A program made the position numbers and the translations under genes. A model generated the notes under the pieces. The model saw only the letters and a program-made list of their open reading frames with translations, did no database searches and had not been told where the DNA came from. 64,000 bases of DNA from Paenibacillus polygoni (lineage in GTDB: Bacteria > Bacillota > Bacilli > Paenibacillales > Paenibacillaceae), in the NCBI RefSeq assembly GCF_030263935.1, contig NZ_CP127162.1:1187501-1251500 (forward strand), in the 5' to 3' direction. Of the stretch, positions 6,728 to 64,000 are shown in pieces (within the stretch, counting starts at the first letter, position 1; each line of letters starts with the position of its first letter).

Positions 6728-6839
6728 GGCAAAAGATGTGAAGGCCTGATACGAATTGAAATGAACATCTAAAATACATAAAGACTTCATATGAGTACAT
6801 ATCAAAAGTCGATCATACCGAGCAAGGTCCAGAAGAATA

Positions 6840-7008
6840 AAAGCATTTCATTCTTTTGGTTAAAAGGGAAGCCGGTGCAAATCCGGCACGGTCCCGCCAC
6901 TGTATACCAGGGACAGCTGCAATGAATCCACTGTTTTCGTCTATAGGAAATGGGAAGGGGGCAAGCTGTTACTTCAAACTTGGATAGTCAGGAGACCTGC
7001 CTTGCCCT
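6840..7008 (+). promoter_or_regulatory. Cobalamin (B12) riboswitch
   Basis: The conserved core GCCGGTGCAAATCCGGC followed by ACGGTCCCGCCACTGT lies at 6871-6903, and the B12 box AGTCAGGAGACCTGCC at 6986-7001. Spacing and order match the adenosylcobalamin aptamer class. It precedes a terminator and the corrinoid transporter genes, so high cobalamin should stop transcription of btuFCD. Confidence 0.95.
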
Positions 7009-7014
7009 TTGATA

Positions 7015-7050
7015 AACGTGTAATCCTTCGAGGAAAGGATACGTTTTGCT
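7015..7050 (+). terminator. Riboswitch-controlled terminator (expression platform)
   Basis: AACGTGTAATCCTT pairs with AAGGATACGTT around a CGAGGA loop, followed by TTTTGCTT. It sits directly after the B12 box and before the btuF start, the usual place for transcription attenuation. Confidence 0.8.
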
Positions 7051-28089: not shown

Positions 28090-29640
28090 CACGATGAGAG
28101 GCTAGGTATCAAAACAGTCTTGTGGGGCGGAATCTAAAGGAAGCCGGAGGCAAACCCTTGGTACGACGAACAGCATTAATATATAAGGCATCGTGGGACG
28201 TACGAGCTTGCTTACCAAAGCAATGTCCAATACTGCCCGAATCCCATGATGTAGATGTGGCAGATAGATGAGGGGAAGGTAATCGTTCTTACCCGGGGAG
28301 ATCTCACAAGACGTGGAGTAGGAAAAAAATACCGAATGACGGAGTAAAGCTTGCTGTGAGAAGTCGGCATAGGCCATAGTACCGGGAGTTTTTTTCTCGG
28401 AAAGGGCTGAATAATTGTAAGTCTTGAATACCTACTCGAAGGAGAATTAGTATGATGAAAGCAGAATACTGATAGAGCTGCCTACAAAGGGATAGTGTGG
28501 AACACGAAGAATGCAGGAGCGCGGAGCATCGATACTCGGAAAAGCAGAGAAAGAGACGGTGCAATGGACTTGCTAGAAAGGATACTAAACAGGGGAAACC
28601 TGGACAAAGCCTACAAGCGAGTCAATAGCAAACATGGAGCGCCAGGGAATGACGGAATGACCGTCGAGCGGCACTTCCGTGGCTGCAAGAAAATAGAGAC
28701 GAACTCCTACAAAGTATCCAGGCTGGGAGATACAAACCGATCCCAGTACGGCGAAAAAAATCCCCAAAACGGATTGGAGTGGCGTGCGAAAGCTCTGTAT
28801 TCCTACGGTGGTGGATCGCATTATCCAGCAAGCCATTGCTCAGCAGCTGAAACCGATGTTCGAACCGCTCTTTTCGAACGGAAGTTATGGTTACCGTCCG
28901 GGACGGAGCACCCAGCAGGCAATTAGGAGGGTGAAAAGCTATGTGGAGCAAGGAAATGGCTAATCTGTAAAAATTGACCTCTCAAAATACTTCGATACGC
29001 TGAACCACGAGCTATTAATGAACCTCCTACACAAACAGGTCACGGATAAAGATGTAACGGACCTGATTAAGAAATACTTTAAAAAAAGTAGGGTCATGGA
29101 AAACGGATTACGACGCGACACGGAAGAAGGATCCCCACAGGGAGGCCCACTGTCGCCACTTCTAGCAATTTGAACGAATTTGATCAGGAGATGGAAAGTC
29201 GAGGAGCTAATGTCATTCGCTATGGGGATGACATCGTGGTGCTAGCGTGAAGCAAACGAGCAGCGGTCCGAATACTGAGACGAGCCAAAGGTACCTAGAG
29301 AACAAACTGAAACTCACAATTAATGCGCAGAAAAGTAAGGTCGTCAGCGTACTAGCCCAGAAGCACTTTAAATTCCTTGGCTATGCTCTAGGGAAGAACG
29401 GGAGCGGAGTCTATATCCGCACCTATAGGCAATCTCTAGCAAAGGCGAAGAAGAAACTGAAAGAGCTAACAAGCCAAAGCCTAGGAAGGAACGCTAGGCA
29501 GGTTATCGAGAACGTAAAGGCTACATACGCGGATGGATCGGATACTTTTACGTAGCCGATATGAAGCGAATCCTGCAAAGCTGGAATCAGCAAGCGCAGT
29601 CTATGCATTAATGCACTCTATAAAAACAGAATTTTAAAAA
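28090..29640 (+). mobile_element. Decayed group II intron (5' RNA domains plus broken reverse transcriptase)
   Basis: The region before the reverse transcriptase is intron-like (structured, including AAGTCGGCATAGGCCATAGTACCGG, a pattern recalled from Firmicute group II introns). The reverse transcriptase reading is broken. No domain V hairpin was recognised after it, so the 3' end appears lost. Both boundaries are approximate. Confidence 0.6.
28564..29611 (+). pseudogene. Group II intron reverse transcriptase/maturase, frameshifted
   Basis: Pieces in changing frames follow the LtrA order: MDLLERILNRGNLDKA with GAPGNDGMTVE; IPTVVDRIIQQAIAQ and NGSYGYRPGRSTQQAIRR; DLSKYFDTLNHE; EEGSPQGGPLSPLL; the catalytic VIRYGDDIVVLA; NAQKSKVV and FKFLGYALG; and the maturase end YVADMKRILQSWN. 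At least one in-frame TAA (after VEQGNG) and several shifts break it, and the C-terminal endonuclease part is missing. It cannot make a full protein. Confidence 0.88.
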
Positions 29641-48706: not shown

Positions 48707-50584
48707 ATGAGTATTCAGACAAAAACAATGGCAGAAGCGCAGGAGATGCTGCAAACTTATTTTGGATATCCTGATTTTCGGGAGGGTCAGAAAAAGATTG
48801 TAGAAAGCCTGCTTCAACATAACGACACACTCGGCATTATGCCGACAGGCGGCGGGAAATCGATCTGTTACCAGATTCCGGCTTTGCTGTATCCGGGTCT
48901 GACTTTGGTTGTGTCACCGCTGATTTCATTAATGAAGGATCAGGTCGATGCACTGCTTGCCATGGGCATTCCTGCTGCTTATATCAATAGTACGCTGAGC
49001 GGACGTGAAGTGAATGACCGGATCAGAGCTGCTCGCAGCGGTGAACTGAAGATGCTGTATGTTGCACCGGAGCGGCTTGAACTGGACTGGTTCCGTGATG
49101 AAATGGCAGAACTTCCGATTTCTTGTGTAGCAGTGGATGAGGCTCACTGTGTATCGCAGTGGGGGCATGATTTTCGGACGAGTTATCTATCGGTAGCTCC
49201 TTTTGTGGAATATTTGCCGGAGCGCCCGATTGTAGCCGCCTTTACTGCAACCGCAACTCCGGCAGTAATGGAAGATATCCTAAGACTGCTGCGTTTACGT
49301 AATCCGGAGACGTTTGTCACAGGACTAGGGCGAGATAATCTTGCGATGCAGGTCCTGCGCGGGGAGAACAAAAAAGAATATGTAATGGACTATGCCCGTG
49401 AACATGCGGACGAAGCGGGGATTATCTATGCTGCGACACGTAAGGATGTAGATGATCTGTACAGCCGTTTGCAAGAGGCCGGAATAGCGGCAGGGCGTTA
49501 TCATGCAGGAATGACAGATGAAGAGCGCGCAGCAAGTCAGGAAGCTTTCTTGTTCGATGATCTAAGAGTGATTGTGGCAACGAATGCATTTGGGATGGGT
49601 ATCGATAAAAGTAACGTGAGATATGTGATCCATTATAATATGCCGAAAAATATGGAAGCCTACGTTCAGGAGGCAGGACGTGCAGGTCGGGACGGCGAAC
49701 CGAGTCAGTGTATCCTGCTGTTCAGCGCGCAAGATATCATGACTCAGAAGTTCCTGCTGGAGCAGGGGGATGCAGATCCTGAGCGCAAGCGCAACGATTA
49801 TCGTAAGCTTCAGCAGATGATTGATTATTGTTATACGACGAAGTGTCTGCGCAGTGCGCAACTGGACTATTTTGGAGAGGCTCATGATGATACGGGCTGC
49901 GGAATTTGCAGTTCTTGTACGGATGATCGGGAACTCATTGATATGACCGTTGATGCCCAAAAGATTTTCTCCTGTATTCACCGGATGAGAGAGCGTTTTG
50001 GCGTGTCGCTTGTGTCGATGGTACTCAAAGGTTCGAGAAACAAAAAAGTGCTGGAATATGGTTTTGACAGTTTGCCTACGTATGGAGTGATGTCGAATCG
50101 TACGGAAAAAGAAATCTCTGAAATCATTAACGTACTCGCCTCTGAAGGATATCTTGCTTTGTCGGAAGGACAGTACCCCGTGCTGAGACTTCAGCCGCTT
50201 GCGGTCGAAGTACTGAAAGGACAGCGCGAAGTGATGCAGCGAGTGGCGAGAGTAAGTGTGGCTTCTTCAAGAAGCAGCAGATCTTCTAGAACAAGTAAAC
50301 GAGATATGTCTCCATCTGCGGTGAACGAGACAATATTCGAACAGCTGAGACTGATTCGCCGTGAAATGGCAGAGCGGGAGCATGTACCGTCCTATATTAT
50401 TTTTAATGATGCAACGCTTCGAGAGATGAGTGTGGTATGTCCGCAGAGCGAACGTGACATGCTGAAGATTAAAGGGGTCGGAGAAGTGAAGTACCGGAAA
50501 TACGGACAACCTTTTCTCGATTTCTTCTTGAACCAAGGAAGTAGTGAAGTAGAAGCACCAGCTTATGATCCTTTTGAATTCTAA
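48707..50584 (+). CDS. recQ: RecQ-family ATP-dependent DNA helicase
   Basis: 625 residues, full length. Motif 0 YFGYPDFREGQ, Walker A MPTGGGKS (residues 45-52), DEAH box AVDEAHCVSQWGHDFR near 142, motif VI EAGRAGRDG, a zinc site with Cys in YCYTTKCLR...CGICSSC, the RQC region and an HRDC domain at the C-terminus (REHVPSYIIFNDATL) are all present. A serine/arginine-rich linker (SRSSRSSRTSKR) joins RQC and HRDC. Unwinds 3'-5' DNA for repair and recombination. Confidence 0.94.
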   Translation: MSIQTKTMAEAQEMLQTYFGYPDFREGQKKIVESLLQHNDTLGIMPTGGGKSICYQIPALLYPGLTLVVSPLISLMKDQVDALLAMGIPAAYINSTLSGREVNDRIRAARSGELKMLYVAPERLELDWFRDEMAELPISCVAVDEAHCVSQWGHDFRTSYLSVAPFVEYLPERPIVAAFTATATPAVMEDILRLLRLRNPETFVTGLGRDNLAMQVLRGENKKEYVMDYAREHADEAGIIYAATRKDVDDLYSRLQEAGIAAGRYHAGMTDEERAASQEAFLFDDLRVIVATNAFGMGIDKSNVRYVIHYNMPKNMEAYVQEAGRAGRDGEPSQCILLFSAQDIMTQKFLLEQGDADPERKRNDYRKLQQMIDYCYTTKCLRSAQLDYFGEAHDDTGCGICSSCTDDRELIDMTVDAQKIFSCIHRMRERFGVSLVSMVLKGSRNKKVLEYGFDSLPTYGVMSNRTEKEISEIINVLASEGYLALSEGQYPVLRLQPLAVEVLKGQREVMQRVARVSVASSRSSRSSRTSKRDMSPSAVNETIFEQLRLIRREMAEREHVPSYIIFNDATLREMSVVCPQSERDMLKIKGVGEVKYRKYGQPFLDFFLNQGSSEVEAPAYDPFEF

Positions 50585-50657
50585 TGGCAATAGAAGATAA
50601 GTGATAAATACAGGGCACTATGATGAGTAATTCCACTACGGTAAAGGTTGTGCGCAT

Positions 50658-52427
50658 ATGAAAGTAATTTTATCGACGCTGAATGCGAAGTACATTCATA
50701 CTTCTCTTGCAATTCGTTGCTTGAAGGCTTATAGCGAAAAAGATTTTGATATTGAGCTTGCGGAATATACGATCAAAGACCCGGTGATGAACATCGTGTC
50801 AGATCTGTATCAACGCGGAGCCGATGTGATTGGATTCTCTTGTTATATCTGGAACATTGAAGAGACGATCAAAGTAATTAATATTCTAAAAAGGGTTATG
50901 CCTGAGGTGAAAATCATCCTTGGCGGACCTGAGGTATCCTATGATGTGGAGCACTGGATGAATCGTCTTCCGAACGTTGATTTCATCGTGGTCGGTGAAG
51001 GAGAAGAGACATTCCATCAGCTTTTGCAGGAGATTGAAGGGAAGCAGAAATACCACTTTGTATATGGACTCGCCTACCGTAAAGGGGAAGAGGTGATCGT
51101 GATGCCAGGCAGGCCGAAAGCCGACCTGAACGAACTGCCTTCTCCGTATCGTTTTCCTGAAGATGTTCCGGATCTCGGAAAACGAGTGGTTTATTTTGAG
51201 ACAAGCCGCGGTTGTCCGTTTAACTGTCAGTTCTGTCTATCGAGTATTGAAGTTGGGGTAAGGTACTTTGATATTGAACGGACGAAAGCAGATATTCTGT
51301 ATCTGATCGAAAATGGTGCGAAACTCATCAAATTCGTGGATCGGACGTTTAATATTAAGCGGGATTATGCACTAGAGATGTTCGAATTCCTAATTCAAAA
51401 TCACGGGGGCTGCGTGTTCCAGTTCGAAATTACAGCAGACATTATGCGTCCGGAAGTGCTGGACTATCTGGCGGAGAATGCACCTCCTGGGGTGTTTCGT
51501 TTTGAGATTGGGGTTCAGTCCACGAATGACCCGACGAATGAACTTGTAAAACGCCGTCAGAACTTTACGAAGCTTAGCCGGACGGTAAGCAAGATTAAAG
51601 CCAGCGGAAAAATTGATCAGCATTTGGACCTCATTGCCGGTCTGCCGCTCGAAGATTACGATACATTCCGTAAAACGTTCAACGATGTATTTGCACTGGG
51701 ACCAGAAGAACTCCAGCTTGGTTTCCTTAAAATGCTGCGCGGAACGGGGCTTCGTCTTGACGCAGACAAATACAACTACACGTACATGGATCAGGCACCG
51801 TATGAAATTTTGGGCAGTGATGTGCTTCCTTTTAGTGATATTGTGAGATTGAAACGTCTTGAGGATGTACTTGAGAAGTACTGGAATGCACACCGTATGG
51901 ACCATACGCTTAAATATCTGATGGAGCAGGAATTCCCGTCTCCGTTCGACTTCTTCCAAGCCTTCGGCGACTACTGGGAAGGACAAGGATGGCAAAAGAT
52001 CGGTCATCAGCTTGAGGATCTATTTACCCGTCTTCGTTCATTCCTAGAGCAGCGGGGGACGAAACAAATGGATCTCATCCTGGGTCTGATGAAGCTCGAC
52101 TACTTCCTTGGTCACAAGTACAAGCCGCGTAAAATCTGGTGGGATTTTACGATGGAGAAGAGCGACTGGGCGTCGTATATCAAACGTCTCGCGGAGCATC
52201 CGGAAGACGTATCGCCTGAATTTGCTAAGCTTTCACTAAGTGAACGAGATCTTCAGAAACATGCGGTTCTGGAAGTGTTGCCGTTCCACTTGGAACGTGT
52301 ACTCGCTGGTGTAACACCAGAGGATGCAAAAGGGCAGACCCTTCTCGTTACGATCTATCAGCAGAATGAAGATCAGAAGCCGGTGTATTTTACCTTGCCG
52401 CTGGGAGCGGTAGCGAAGTTGATTTAA
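50658..52427 (+). CDS. B12-binding domain radical SAM protein (DUF4080)
   Basis: 589 residues. An N-terminal cobalamin-binding Rossmann domain (residues 1-140, with GADVIGFSCYIWN and ILGGPEVSYD) is followed by the radical SAM core whose cluster motif CxxxCxxC is in SRGCPFNCQFC near residue 185, then a C-terminal DUF4080 region. The enzyme class performs radical methylation or rearrangement using cobalamin; the substrate is unknown. It lacks the DxHxxG histidine of base-on B12 proteins, as usual for this class. Starts 73 bases after recQ on the same strand. Confidence 0.9.
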   Translation: MKVILSTLNAKYIHTSLAIRCLKAYSEKDFDIELAEYTIKDPVMNIVSDLYQRGADVIGFSCYIWNIEETIKVINILKRVMPEVKIILGGPEVSYDVEHWMNRLPNVDFIVVGEGEETFHQLLQEIEGKQKYHFVYGLAYRKGEEVIVMPGRPKADLNELPSPYRFPEDVPDLGKRVVYFETSRGCPFNCQFCLSSIEVGVRYFDIERTKADILYLIENGAKLIKFVDRTFNIKRDYALEMFEFLIQNHGGCVFQFEITADIMRPEVLDYLAENAPPGVFRFEIGVQSTNDPTNELVKRRQNFTKLSRTVSKIKASGKIDQHLDLIAGLPLEDYDTFRKTFNDVFALGPEELQLGFLKMLRGTGLRLDADKYNYTYMDQAPYEILGSDVLPFSDIVRLKRLEDVLEKYWNAHRMDHTLKYLMEQEFPSPFDFFQAFGDYWEGQGWQKIGHQLEDLFTRLRSFLEQRGTKQMDLILGLMKLDYFLGHKYKPRKIWWDFTMEKSDWASYIKRLAEHPEDVSPEFAKLSLSERDLQKHAVLEVLPFHLERVLAGVTPEDAKGQTLLVTIYQQNEDQKPVYFTLPLGAVAKLI

Positions 52428-61017: not shown

Positions 61018-61059
61018 GGTACATGTACCATAAAAAGTCGCTATATAGCGGCTTTTTTT
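61018..61059 (+). repeat. Perfect palindrome and hairpin block next to recombinase fragment
   Basis: GGTACATGTACC (61018-61029) is a 12-bp perfect palindrome. Six bases on, GTCGCTATATAGCGGC is a hairpin followed by seven T and GTTTT. The same order (ACA-rich palindrome, AAAGTCGCTA...TAGCGGC, T run, GTTTT) occurs at 27860-27912. Confidence 0.75.
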
Positions 61060-61098
61060 GTTTTGAATTTATAACTTAACTTGGGATTTCTAATAATC

Positions 61099-61322
61099 TG
61101 GGATACGAAGGAAGTTGGGATTCATGATTGAGGCACTCTTACGCTACACATTTAATTGAGGGAGGTAAGGATCTCAGGTACATTCAAGAGTTGCTTTTGC
61201 ATACCCGTTCCACTACGACAGAAGGATATACGCATGTAAGCAGGAAGAATCTAAAGAAGATTCAAAGTCCGTTGGATCGAATGGAGGAAGATATTGGAGA
61301 AGGGTGGGTTACAATATATTAA
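61099..61322 (+). pseudogene. C-terminal fragment of a tyrosine recombinase, frameshifted
   Basis: [10 protein letters not shown] in one frame joins [20 protein letters not shown] in the next, at about 61125, by a one-base shift. The second piece keeps the RH catalytic pair, the HxxR-type region ([14 protein letters not shown]) and the nucleophile Tyr in [19 protein letters not shown]. The SPLD tail resembles the C-terminus of integron-type and XerC/D-like integrases. The N-terminal domain and the first catalytic Arg region are lost, so it is inactive. Confidence 0.8.
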
Positions 61323-61577
61323 TATCAGTTATAATTTAACAGTTTATTGTTATTGAGGTTCGTGAATATATAATGAATGTGGGGTATACGTAGTATAGAA
61401 ATATACGCCTAGAAGAAGATATTTACGACTTACAGAGATAAAGAAGTTATTAGAAATTAGCGCAAAGACTGAACCAATAAAAAGAACATTTTGATAGGAT
61501 GATTCTACTGTCAAATTTTATGGAAATTTGTTGAATAATACAATATTCTTTAATAAGAACTTAATGGAGGGATTACG
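61323..61577. other. Gap with a partial repeat
   Basis: AT-rich, no gene. GAGGTTCGTGAATATA at 61355-61370 resembles the right part of the 62868 repeat (GGGTTTGTGAATGCAA). Confidence 0.35.
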
Positions 61578-61898
61578 ATGTATACAATGGAAGAAGAAAT
61601 TAAAACAAGGATCAGACAATTAAAACAAGTTATTTCTAGTTATGAAATTATTCGTTGTTTAAGTAACGACTTGCTAGATACATCATATGATCATACTATA
61701 TACAGTGATGACCTTTACTTGTATCGAAAAGAAGATGATAAATTTGTTTATCTTCATGATAATGAGGACGAAACTGAAGGCAGGGTATCTGTTGAAGATT
61801 TAAAGATAATTCTTAAGAACATTGCTACACGTGATATAATTGACAAATATGAACTAAAAGAATTAGATCAATTTTTGAATACGGAAGATGATGAATAG
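61578..61898 (+). CDS. Hypothetical protein, 106 aa, paired with a DUF2971 gene
   Basis: GGAGGG lies eight bases before the ATG. Acidic, helical, no recognised motif (TMEEEIKTRIRQLKQVISSYE at the start, tail NTEDDE). Its stop is three bases before the DUF2971 start, so they are translated together and the product may be a partner or antidote of that protein. This is a positional guess. Confidence 0.6.
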   Translation: MYTMEEEIKTRIRQLKQVISSYEIIRCLSNDLLDTSYDHTIYSDDLYLYRKEDDKFVYLHDNEDETEGRVSVEDLKIILKNIATRDIIDKYELKELDQFLNTEDDE

Positions 61899-61901
61899 AC
61901 A

Positions 61902-62726
61902 ATGAGTAATTTAATTTATCATTACACTGGTGCAGAAGCACTAAAGAGTATAGTGTTAAATCAATCGTTTTGGATTACCAAAAGTGATTATTTGAATGAC
62001 ACTTCCGAACAAATAATGATTATGGATCTTTTGAAAGGTTTTTTCAAAGAACAAAAAATGGATAAGAATGTCCAAAAATATATTATGGATCAATTATCTA
62101 AATATCTAAATGAATATAATCATTATATACTGTCATTTTCAAAAACAGACGATTCGTTACCGCTTTGGAATTATTATTCTGAGAATGAAGGATATAGTAT
62201 TGGAATTGATAAAGAAGAGTTTATTGAGCAGCTTCGTAAGTATTTTAAAGAGATAGATTGTAATTCGAGAGTAATAATTACTGAAGTGATGTATTCGAAT
62301 GAAGTTGGGGACGAAAAAGCAGTTAGGGATGAATTACTTCCTTTTATACATTTCAATTCTGATGATATAAATACTAAGAAGGATAGATTTGATCAACTTG
62401 CATTAAAATTAGCAAATATGTCTTACTCTATAAAACATTCAGCGTACTCTTCAGAAATGGAAGAACGAATTGTAATTATATGTGAGAAAAACAGTGAGAT
62501 TTCGAAGTGTGAAGAATTTAGAGTATTAAGGGGATCATTTATACCATATATTATATTTAATAAAGATAAAAGAAAAGACATTGAAATCCCCATAAAAAAA
62601 GTAAAATTAAGTCCCTATCACACAATGGATGTAACAGAAAAAAGTTTATTCTATTTATTAAAGAGAAAATATCCAGGTCTTGTAGAACGTGATATTTCTC
62701 AGTCACGAATCCCATCACGTTACTAG
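61902..62726 (+). CDS. DUF2971-family protein
   Basis: 274 residues. The family start IYHYTGAEALKSIVLNQSFWITKSDYLNDTSE (its YxYT, W-T and LND patterns, residues 4-35) and YSIGIDKEEF near 100 match DUF2971, often found in accessory and defence regions and distantly like ADP-ribosyltransferase folds. The function is unknown. Much more AT-rich than core genes. Terminator at 62728. Confidence 0.8.
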   Translation: MSNLIYHYTGAEALKSIVLNQSFWITKSDYLNDTSEQIMIMDLLKGFFKEQKMDKNVQKYIMDQLSKYLNEYNHYILSFSKTDDSLPLWNYYSENEGYSIGIDKEEFIEQLRKYFKEIDCNSRVIITEVMYSNEVGDEKAVRDELLPFIHFNSDDINTKKDRFDQLALKLANMSYSIKHSAYSSEMEERIVIICEKNSEISKCEEFRVLRGSFIPYIIFNKDKRKDIEIPIKKVKLSPYHTMDVTEKSLFYLLKRKYPGLVERDISQSRIPSRY

Positions 62727-62727
62727 G

Positions 62728-62767
62728 AGATGGAGAGACAATTAATCAATTGCCTCTCCATCTTTTT
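62728..62767 (+). terminator. Terminator after the DUF2971 gene
   Basis: AGATGGAGAG pairs with CTCTCCATCT, with an inner CAATTAATTG stem, followed by TTTTTT. Confidence 0.9.
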
Positions 62768-62867
62768 TCATAAAGGGAAATTAAAATTTTTTCTGTTTTG
62801 GACAATGAGGGAGATGTTAGAATTTGAAGGAGACACTTATATCTTATAACAAATCATTCAAGCTTTG

Positions 62868-62957
62868 GACTAACGCCCTCGGTCTACAAGAGGCATTTTT
62901 AAGAAGAGGGAGCAGCGGACAACTCCTACGGGGTTTGTGAATGCAACAACGTTAGGC
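62868..62957 (+). repeat. Cassette-type repeat copy 1 (attC-like)
   Basis: Ends form the pair CTAACG (62870-62875) / CGTTAG (62950-62955); the right end GTTAGGC fits the attC R' box GTTRRRY. Inside are CGCCCTCGGTC...AGAGG...ATTTTT and AACTCC/GGGGTTTGT hairpins. About half the bases agree with copy 2 at 63821, in the same order. No database test was possible. Confidence 0.5.
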
Positions 62958-62981
62958 GAAATTATTCTTAAGGAGAAGAGT

Positions 62982-63788
62982 ATGAAAAGAAAAAAGAGAA
63001 AAAAACAAAAGATAAAAGAAATAAGATTTTTAGATGGCAGAATACATGAAGGTAACTTTCTTGGGGCTGTAGTTGATAATGTTAACAATCAAATTCGTGT
63101 ATATTCCAATGATATGCTTCAAAAAAGAATTCAAAGAGACTCAAATACTATAGGAAAATCTTTTGATAAACTTTGTAGTGATGAATTAGTTCAAATGGGA
63201 GAACTATTTAGCAAAGCCAATTATCTAATAAGCAATGCTTTTTTTAGGGCAAATCATAAAGAAGATGAAATGAAAGTAACGAGTAGTAAGTTATTGATGA
63301 ACGCTGCAAGTACAATTCAAGCTGCAGTTGAATTATTGCGAATAGGATATACTTTGCAACCATGTATGTTGCTTCGATCTGTTATTGAAACTATAAGTAC
63401 AGTTGCTTACTTCATGATGGAACCGGGTGGTCATCAAGTTTACTTGGATGGAAAACTTGATGTAAACAAAACTATTAAATATGGGAAGCAATTAATACCG
63501 AATTTAGGGCAACTACAGGGAATACTAAGTAATCATTTTGTACATATTAGTTCTTTGCATTCCGATCTTAATGGAATAACAAAACACATAGAAATCACAC
63601 CTCCACTAAGGATAAATCTAAATATGATAAAGGTTTGTACTTGGTGCTTATTTGTAACAAGCGAAGTAACCTTTTATGATTATTTTGATGATCATAAATA
63701 TTGGATTAAAGTTGCTGAGGGCCAATATAAATTTATACAAAGTGATGATGATAAAAAATGGATGAGTGAGTTTTTTAAGGATGAATAA
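62982..63788 (+). CDS. Hypothetical protein, 268 aa, DUF5677-like
   Basis: The ATG at 62982 has AAGGAG about six bases upstream. A very basic start (KRKKRKKQKIKE) precedes a mainly helical body. The middle (LLMNAASTIQAAVELLRIGYTLQP, then MLLRSVIETISTVAYFM; one helical hairpin) resembles DUF5677-type proteins with their (L)LRxxxE motif. The function is unknown. It lies between two similar repeats, as a gene cassette would. AT-rich. Confidence 0.6.
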   Translation: MKRKKRKKQKIKEIRFLDGRIHEGNFLGAVVDNVNNQIRVYSNDMLQKRIQRDSNTIGKSFDKLCSDELVQMGELFSKANYLISNAFFRANHKEDEMKVTSSKLLMNAASTIQAAVELLRIGYTLQPCMLLRSVIETISTVAYFMMEPGGHQVYLDGKLDVNKTIKYGKQLIPNLGQLQGILSNHFVHISSLHSDLNGITKHIEITPPLRINLNMIKVCTWCLFVTSEVTFYDYFDDHKYWIKVAEGQYKFIQSDDDKKWMSEFFKDE

Positions 63789-63820
63789 TAACTTCACCTA
63801 GCATAGAATTCACGCAACAG

Positions 63821-63905
63821 GCACGCGCCCTCGGTCCAGCAGAGGGATTTTGGGGGAGAAGGAGCTACCGGACACATACACTAGGTTGGTCATCGTAAAT
63901 ACGTG
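63821..63905 (+). repeat. Cassette-type repeat copy 2 (attC-like, diverged)
   Basis: Shares CGCCCTCGGTC, AGAGG, ATTTT, GAGAAGGAGC and CGGACA in order with copy 1. The terminal pair is CACG/CGTG instead of CTAACG/CGTTAG, so pairing of the ends is kept with different bases; four pairs could be chance. The GTTRRRY box is not recognisable. Confidence 0.45.
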
Positions 63906-63940
63906 AAAGCCAGATGGAATCTATTAATGGGTGATGAGAG

Positions 63941-64000
63941 ATGTTTCAAAACTATTATGAAGGGAATGGACAAAGTAAAGAATGTTATTCTTATTTGGGA
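63941..64000 (+). CDS. Start of an open frame running off the window
   Basis: GGTGATGAGAG then ATG (MFQNYYEGNGQSKECYSYLG) open to the last base. It follows repeat copy 2 by 36 bases as the 62982 gene follows copy 1 by 25. Too short to identify. Confidence 0.4.
   Translation, partial: MFQNYYEGNGQSKECYSYLG

Follow-up and report, generated by a model that had tools for sequence, protein, structure and literature searches.

Sedentary chromosomal integrons of the IntI type, such as the Vibrio superintegron (structure of IntI4: 2A3V in the Protein Data Bank, PDB), consist of a tyrosine recombinase, an attachment site (attI) and co-oriented gene cassettes with attC sites, which have AAC/GTT boxes and a crossover at G^TT. 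In classical integrons the boxes of neighbouring sites are complementary, and the cassette content varies at a fixed site. The same characteristics are found in a system whose remains lie at the end of a 64,000-nucleotide stretch of DNA from Paenibacillus polygoni, which comprises positions 1187501–1251500 of a genome of 4.94 Mb in a single contig and is hereafter called the window. This end of the window very probably represents the head, now decayed, of an integron-like platform for cassettes in the chromosome, with a non-IntI integrase. The system differs from IntI integrons in that its recombinase lacks the IntI insert and has about 95 extra residues forming an N-terminal domain, that the recombinase gene is co-directional with the cassettes, that the hosts belong to the order Paenibacillales, and that the short, well-preserved attC sites appear to have three hairpins.

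The papers cited here by their PMC numbers are quoted from excerpts of their text. The additional domain of IntI is regarded as a defining feature of integron integrases (PMC9668308, citing Messier and Roy, 2001). The insertion is described as essential for integron function, yet not fully conserved in an "integron-like" subgroup of tyrosine recombinases (PMC8138268); cassette arrays without the insertion, as described here, do not appear in the excerpt of that paper. Integrons have been regarded as all but missing from Firmicutes. The phylum is listed among the integron-bearing ones (PMC8618304), and with IntegronFinder 2.0 one complete integron (Limnochorda) and a few CALINs (attC clusters without integrase) were found in them, the absence of integrons from such clades being termed intriguing (PMC9024848). 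Searches of the open-licence literature, mostly of titles and the beginnings of abstracts, brought up neither a description of such integrons from Paenibacillus nor one of arrays driven by insert-free integrases.

Two other known systems are similar in part. Like CALINs, the arrays of this genome are without an intact linked recombinase; however, the site family and the recombinases of the relatives are not of the IntI type. With the simple recombinases XerA, XerC and XerD (NF040815, cut-off 220 bits) the catalytic domain is shared, the protein from locus L032 passing with 224.9 bits and that from L055 failing with 216.2 (loci and genomes are designated L and G), whereas the recombinase described here is linked to attI and cassette arrays and has the extra N-terminal domain.

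An intact platform would encode first the tyrosine recombinase with its N-terminal domain, then, at most about 230 bp from the recombinase stop codon, attI, and then co-oriented cassettes, with an attC-like site at the end of each. Through recombination of two sites at G^TT a cassette would leave as a circle, and it would enter at attI or at another site. Circles excised and inserted at G^TT should keep complementary boxes at their two ends (GTTANNN at the start, NNNTAAC at the end). Because both boxes would then be the ends of one cassette, the left box of site i would belong with the right box of site i − 1. Recombination would presumably be carried out by the adjacent recombinase, acting on a folded single strand, and the N-terminal domain presumably has a role in the system.

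Sites, cassettes and the complementarity of their boxes

The sites have the layout NNNTAAC, spacer, ATTCACG, variable middle, CGTGAAT, spacer, GTTANNNGAAA, and are 73–217 bases long (median 129; 154 sites in 14 regions). Their 3′ end, TTCGTGAATACAANAACGTTA, has 26 forward matches and 1 reverse match genome-wide with up to 3 mismatches, and the backward control has 1 and 2. A covariance model (R1) built from 33 sequences, to which this genome contributed 4 with copy 1 of the window among them, finds 40 sites in this genome, all on the plus strand (E ≤ 0.01; 150 of 602 candidates scored). Five of them lie at 1.250–1.266 Mb, which is the end of the window and beyond, 34 lie in the main array at 2.262–2.309 Mb, and one at 2.156 Mb. 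Matrix scanning adds further ends up to about 2.345 Mb, which become sparser with distance as the array also becomes weaker. The first left box of the 2.26-Mb array (CGCCTAAC, L012:6940) pairs with a box at the head of this array (L012:5650–5745, GTTAGGCGAAA); no recombinase adjoins the latter, and that platform, too, seems to have lost its enzyme.

The cassettes of the main array are oriented like their sites: in 29 of the 33 that could be delimited the longest open reading frame (ORF) is on the plus strand. Among 20 of their proteins scanned, 15 have a Pfam match at E ≤ 0.001, in 13 cases above the curated cut-off, and the families are diverse, namely GNAT, histidine phosphatase, PLD, SMI1/KNR4, alpha/beta hydrolase, APH-like phosphotransferase, AAA, DinB, NUDIX, HAD and LprI.

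The complementarity between sites was tested with the three variable bases of the end boxes as a barcode, the left box R''(i) being compared with the right box of the preceding site, R'(i−1), or with the site's own, R'(i). The pool comprised 16 regions (3 from this genome, 13 from relatives), of which G102 and G043 yielded no pair. Across the gene, R''(i) is the exact complement of R'(i−1) in 96 of 151 pairs (shuffled mean 10.3, maximum 22 in 5000); the own box R'(i) fits exactly in 20 of 154 sites (shuffled mean 11.2). When the sites are found by barcode-neutral matrix scanning, the counts are 95/153 for the neighbour and 19/153 for the own box. For example, the main array of this genome has 13/27 for the neighbour and 5/23 for the own box, and G114, from another family of the order, has 19/19 and 2/20. 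Some single regions are weak in this test (G012, 3/7; G020, 3/10; G007, 4/5; own_A and own_C, 0/1 each). In this decisive test the cassette ends obey the logic of circles, in that complementarity links neighbouring sites, as it does in integrons.

The head of the arrays is seen in relatives. The 64-residue recombinase remnant of the window is matched in 113 of 149 relatives (E ≤ 1e-9), the weaker matches being possibly to other Xer-like proteins. Among the 30 best loci (one in this genome, 28 in genomes of the same genus and one in another genus of the family), the ORF has at least 330 codons in 14 and is shorter in 16. An attC-like end follows downstream on the same strand within about 1.5 kb in 26 of them, and a conserved attI core (GTATTTACGAAGTACATAAATTAGATGTTA and variants) follows the stop codon in 28. 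The left box of the first attC could be compared with the barcode of this attI in 23 relatives and fits it in 22 (shuffled mean 2.3, maximum 8 in 5000). Control of the integrase by the SOS repressor LexA is common in integrons, although not universal; the LexA box GAACN4GTTC occurs exactly in 2 of 78 loci, in neither case at the recombinase start. In G071 and G067 (L059–L064) two recombinase copies are present on one strand about 37–41 kb apart, the second G071 copy being a short frame; these may be tandem platforms or a duplication.

The content of the arrays varies behind a conserved flank. In a comparison of 14 relatives, 13 of them with a usable ORF, the 6.5 kb before the recombinase are common to eight species (63–97% covered at 85–97% identity, 28 pairs), but just 3–42% of the 12 kb of cassettes downstream. 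A second upstream flank is common to three other relatives (47–65%), and G012, with its platform at a different location, has 24–28% of the 12 kb of cassettes in common with G070 and G026, at 92–94% identity. The initial annotation of the window had proposed a cassette system and had named as support many copies, found with a new covariance model, lying between unrelated genes and variably present between strains. The 40 sites of this genome and those in the rest of the order, the diversity of the cassette families and, between species, the differing content at a conserved location agree with that proposal, as do the complementarity between neighbouring sites and attI.

The sites themselves are paired. 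In 25 sites of this genome R''/R', L''/L' and the inner stem are paired in 88.7% of the cells as compared with 84.2% after shuffling; 10 pairs are changed on both sides (shuffled mean 5.3, 10 being reached by 1 of 500 shuffles), and no more than 6 when the alignment is slid. Over all 154 sites, five of the seven positions of the L''/L' stem pair more often than in shuffles. The consensus of seventeen short sites, which were chosen by length and include two from this genome, has 26 pairs, with a closing stem around three hairpins and compensatory changes in 9 pairs, which supports a three-hairpin cloverleaf fold for well-preserved short sites. Folded as bottom-strand DNA, four of five sites other than copy 1 of the window have z scores of −4.5 to −6.0 and one has −1.97. 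The bottom strand is the more stable one in 92 of the 154 sites, which is not informative on strand preference.

The recombinase and its occurrence

By sequence the closest solved relative of the recombinase is IntI4, and the AlphaFold model (pLDDT 86.4) likewise finds IntI4 (2A3V) as its best fold match in the PDB. The insert region of IntI4, residues 180–238, is represented by 17 residues in the recombinase of the relatives. The span from GKG to LRH is 68–69 residues in all 8 Paenibacillales proteins measured and 67–72 in those of Bacteroidota, whereas it is 108–109 in 7 of 7 IntI proteins; these seven were picked for the longer match and then confirmed by TIGR02249 with 412–489 bits (cut-off 265). 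With the same profile L032 reaches 209, L055 213.3 and a fragment of 248 residues from L030 186.2 bits, and the Bacteroidota proteins L091, L098 and L113 reach 211, 206 and 191. The extra N-terminal domain of the model consists of strands and helices. Its assignment to the Pfam family HARP is weak, 19 of 57 proteins matching at E ≤ 0.1 (best 1.9e-4).

A quick tree was calculated from 61 rows, which are 53 of 80 loci and 11 other proteins minus L115, L143 and L153 (frame-broken or atypical). It is rooted at the midpoint and leaves 24 of 58 inner branches open. IntI forms one group in it (SH-aLRT 100), and the recombinases of Paenibacillales fall outside it, in a group of 46 rows that also holds those of Bacteroidota and others (SH-aLRT 97).

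R1 matches are present in 193 of the 296 genomes and 27 of the 48 genera of Paenibacillales (E ≤ 1e-4), and in a sample of the class in 28 of 299 genomes, only 7 of them outside the order; both scans were made with stricter filters and at most 10 candidates scored per genome. Beyond the order, the best 80 of at least 591 recombinase matches were considered and 34 loci were inspected. In 18 of them the DNA following the recombinase extends for at least 3 kb, and 16 of these 18 are from Bacteroidota. Chains of box-linked cassettes were detected here with exact 5-base boxes, a criterion too strict where arrays have decayed, several Paenibacillales regions scoring no higher than their shuffles; the detector was applied only to loci outside the order. 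Five of the 16 Bacteroidota loci (L091, L098, L103, L104, L113) have chains of 7–14 downstream (shuffled maximum 5, 200 shuffles each), and the boxes co-vary in L091, L098, L103 and L113, for example GTTGTAGGC with GCCTACAAC. Two more, L092 and L143, have chains of 5, reached by 5/200 and 0/200 shuffles, respectively; a chain of exactly 5 is no proof since shuffles reached this length in L173, L091 and L092. In the upstream parts of these loci there is no chain of 5. In these five loci Bacteroidota are clearly a second phylum with the same layout, a recombinase without the IntI insert followed by box-linked cassettes.

Related recombinases are also found on Bacteroidota plasmids (L173–L176), with chains of 3, 2, 4 and 3 as compared with shuffled maxima of 5, 4, 3 and 3. 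On the plasmid of Pontibacter kalidii (L175, 13226–17412), which is typed as mobilizable, the recombinase is followed by small co-directional genes with four box-linked units; this is possibly a mobile form, the chain of 4 being barely above 20 shuffles (maximum 3). In the metagenome-assembled genome HGW-Firmicutes-8 (L108, 599–4750) attC-like repeats (CGTTTAGCCTGTTGTTA) are situated upstream of the recombinase, with a chain of 6.

The locus in the window

The features of the window that are assigned to the platform are given in Table 1.

Table 1. Features assigned to the platform at the end of the window (coordinates are those of the window)
Feature	Position	Strand	Basis
Conserved left flank	50020–50536 and gene 50658–52427	+	Orthologous to the DNA that directly precedes the recombinase gene of related species
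Tyrosine recombinase, C-terminal remnant, 64 codons	61128–61322	+	PF00589, 35.7 bits, profile positions 132–170
attI-like site, remnant	~61355–61455	+	By-eye alignment with DNA behind the recombinase ORF of G043 and G018
Cassette 1 (putative), attI crossover to attC1 crossover, two genes	61447–62951	+	Boundaries placed from G^TT boxes
Cassette 1 gene a, 106 aa	61578–61898	+	ORF and Pfam scan, no Pfam family
Cassette 1 gene b, 274 aa, DUF2971	61902–62726	+	PF11185, 33.2 bits (cut-off 22)
attC-like site 1	62842–62960	+	Left box TCTTATAAC 62842–62850; right box GTTAGGCG from 62951
Cassette 2 gene, ATG after AAGGAGAAG	62982–63788	+	Weak DUF5677, 19.1 bits, under the cut-off of 27.1
attC-like site 2, degenerate right end	63794–63918	+	R1, 62.7 bits, E 1.8e-9; outside the training set

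The recombinase remnant contains RHSYATHL...SPLDRM and shares 77% identity with a frame in G018 and 70% with one in G043, both of the same genus; it has lost the N-terminal part, which in relatives comprises about 300 residues. Among named proteins, those of Paenibacillus come nearest to a recombinase from this genus. The initial annotation had correctly recognized a C-terminal fragment with an SPLD tail and a broken integrase, of which longer versions exist in relatives, and had overlooked the attI-like site. In G043 the ORF ahead of the corresponding DNA has 433 codons. The crossover of the attI remnant would be located between 61446 and 61447 (GATAAAGAAG^TTATTAGAAATTAG).

The two repeats reported by the annotation, homologous, on one strand and each followed by a gene, are indeed recognized by R1, copy 1 with 93.7 bits (E 4.1e-16; this copy belonged to the training set). 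Their extents had to be revised in that both begin earlier, at 62842 and 63794, and in that the right end of copy 2 is degenerate, its 3′ matrix score being 9.5 as compared with 30.8 in copy 1. The pair CTAACG/CGTTAG, which had been taken for the end boxes of copy 1, does not have this function, because the true left box lies at 62842–62850 and CTAACG at 62870 is inside the site. Nor do the window copies form the predicted hairpins better than chance, the z scores of the two strands, in the annotation's coordinates, being −0.61 and −0.26 for 62866–62960 and 0.68 and 0.41 for copy 2. The left box of site 2 (CACCTAGC) resembles the complement of the preceding right box (CGCCTAAC).

The DNA at 50640–52218 is 79% identical to that of G071, G026 and G060 in a blastn match that stops 0.7–0.8 kb before their recombinase ORF, and a shorter match reaching 52407 stops 0.2–0.3 kb before it. 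Since 50020–52407 thus matches the DNA upstream of the relatives' recombinase, the window probably represents the orthologous platform, decayed and now 8.7 kb away from its former neighbour: about 8.7 kb of other genes separate the flank from the remnant. Elsewhere in the window there are a cobalamin riboswitch at 6808–7018 (RF00174, 99 bits) and two partial matches to group II intron domains at 28118–28407 (RF02001, RF01998).

Weighing of the explanations and meaning

Several observations weigh against a cassette platform with its own integrase. Cassette excision and insertion are deduced here from sequence. The window's own sites are degraded: full-length copy 1, folded as bottom strand, is no better than its shuffles (z 0.02), only two of the three barcode bases of its left box fit attI, and in the window array the one pair that could be tested likewise agrees at 2 of 3. 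The single match to the remnant's family in this genome is the fragment itself, no longer recombinase of that family having been found, and with the recombinase only a remnant the arrays look orphaned. In the relatives only 14 of the 30 best loci have an ORF of at least 330 codons, 11 of these 14 with attC, and no attC end is found within about 1.5 kb downstream in four (L029, L046, L049, L055); L029 is this genome, whose first attC sits just past the distance searched. Finally, 55 of the 151 neighbouring pairs are not exact, the agreement of own boxes is slightly above chance (27 of 5000 shuffles reach 20), two of the seven L''/L' stem positions have no excess pairing over shuffles in the 154 sites, and the R1-matched site at 2.156 Mb falls outside both arrays.

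The arrays could also consist of real cassettes that are moved in trans by XerC/XerD or by another full-length tyrosine recombinase, the linked gene being a passenger. This genome has five tyrosine recombinase frames of 307–370 codons and a large array without a linked recombinase; this explanation is nevertheless very improbable because the order gene, attI, array is kept in 26 of 30 loci and in the five Bacteroidota loci with chains of at least 7, and because the array of this genome thins out downstream, as is expected after loss of the enzyme. Likewise very improbable is a classical IntI integron or CALIN acquired from Proteobacteria. Such an origin would be consistent with the architecture of attI and attC, the G^TT boxes, the top structural match to IntI4 and the few CALINs in Firmicutes genera (excerpt of PMC9024848), but the absence of the IntI insert from the relatives' recombinase means that the system is not a classical integron. 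Its TIGR02249 scores are below the cut-off, the recombinase is outside the IntI clade, and the sites are matched in 193 of the 296 genomes of the order, only 7 genomes of the class sample having them outside it.

Hardly credible is that the repeats are a family of scattered non-autonomous transposons, REP-like elements or attenuators rather than cassette recombination sites. REP elements are intergenic and have internal hairpins, as do the repeats described here. However, the 40 copies found in this genome share a single strand and, with one exception, are confined to two stretches, the barcode links each site to the one before it beyond the intervening gene, relatives have a recombinase and attI at the head of the array, and at Rfam gathering thresholds the repeats in the window, L012 and L072 have no match.

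The decayed integron-like platform is thus preferred as the explanation for the window end. It would function like an integron, yet it is not classed with those of the IntI type, the IntI domain being absent. A more far-reaching proposal, which we consider to have an even chance of being correct, is that Paenibacillales and Bacteroidota harbour a second class of integrons with a recombinase clade separate from IntI, that a HARP-like N-terminal domain replaces the inserted domain in recognizing folded attC, that the sites of Paenibacillales are cloverleaves, and that surveys with IntI-specific profiles have missed this class. If the integron-like reading of the platform holds, integron recombination would be possible without the domain thought to be necessary for it, and the gap in the distribution of integrons in Firmicutes would be partly an artefact of IntI-based searching. 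About two thirds of the sampled genomes of Paenibacillales, a Gram-positive order, carry such sites, and many cassette arrays would become open to study.

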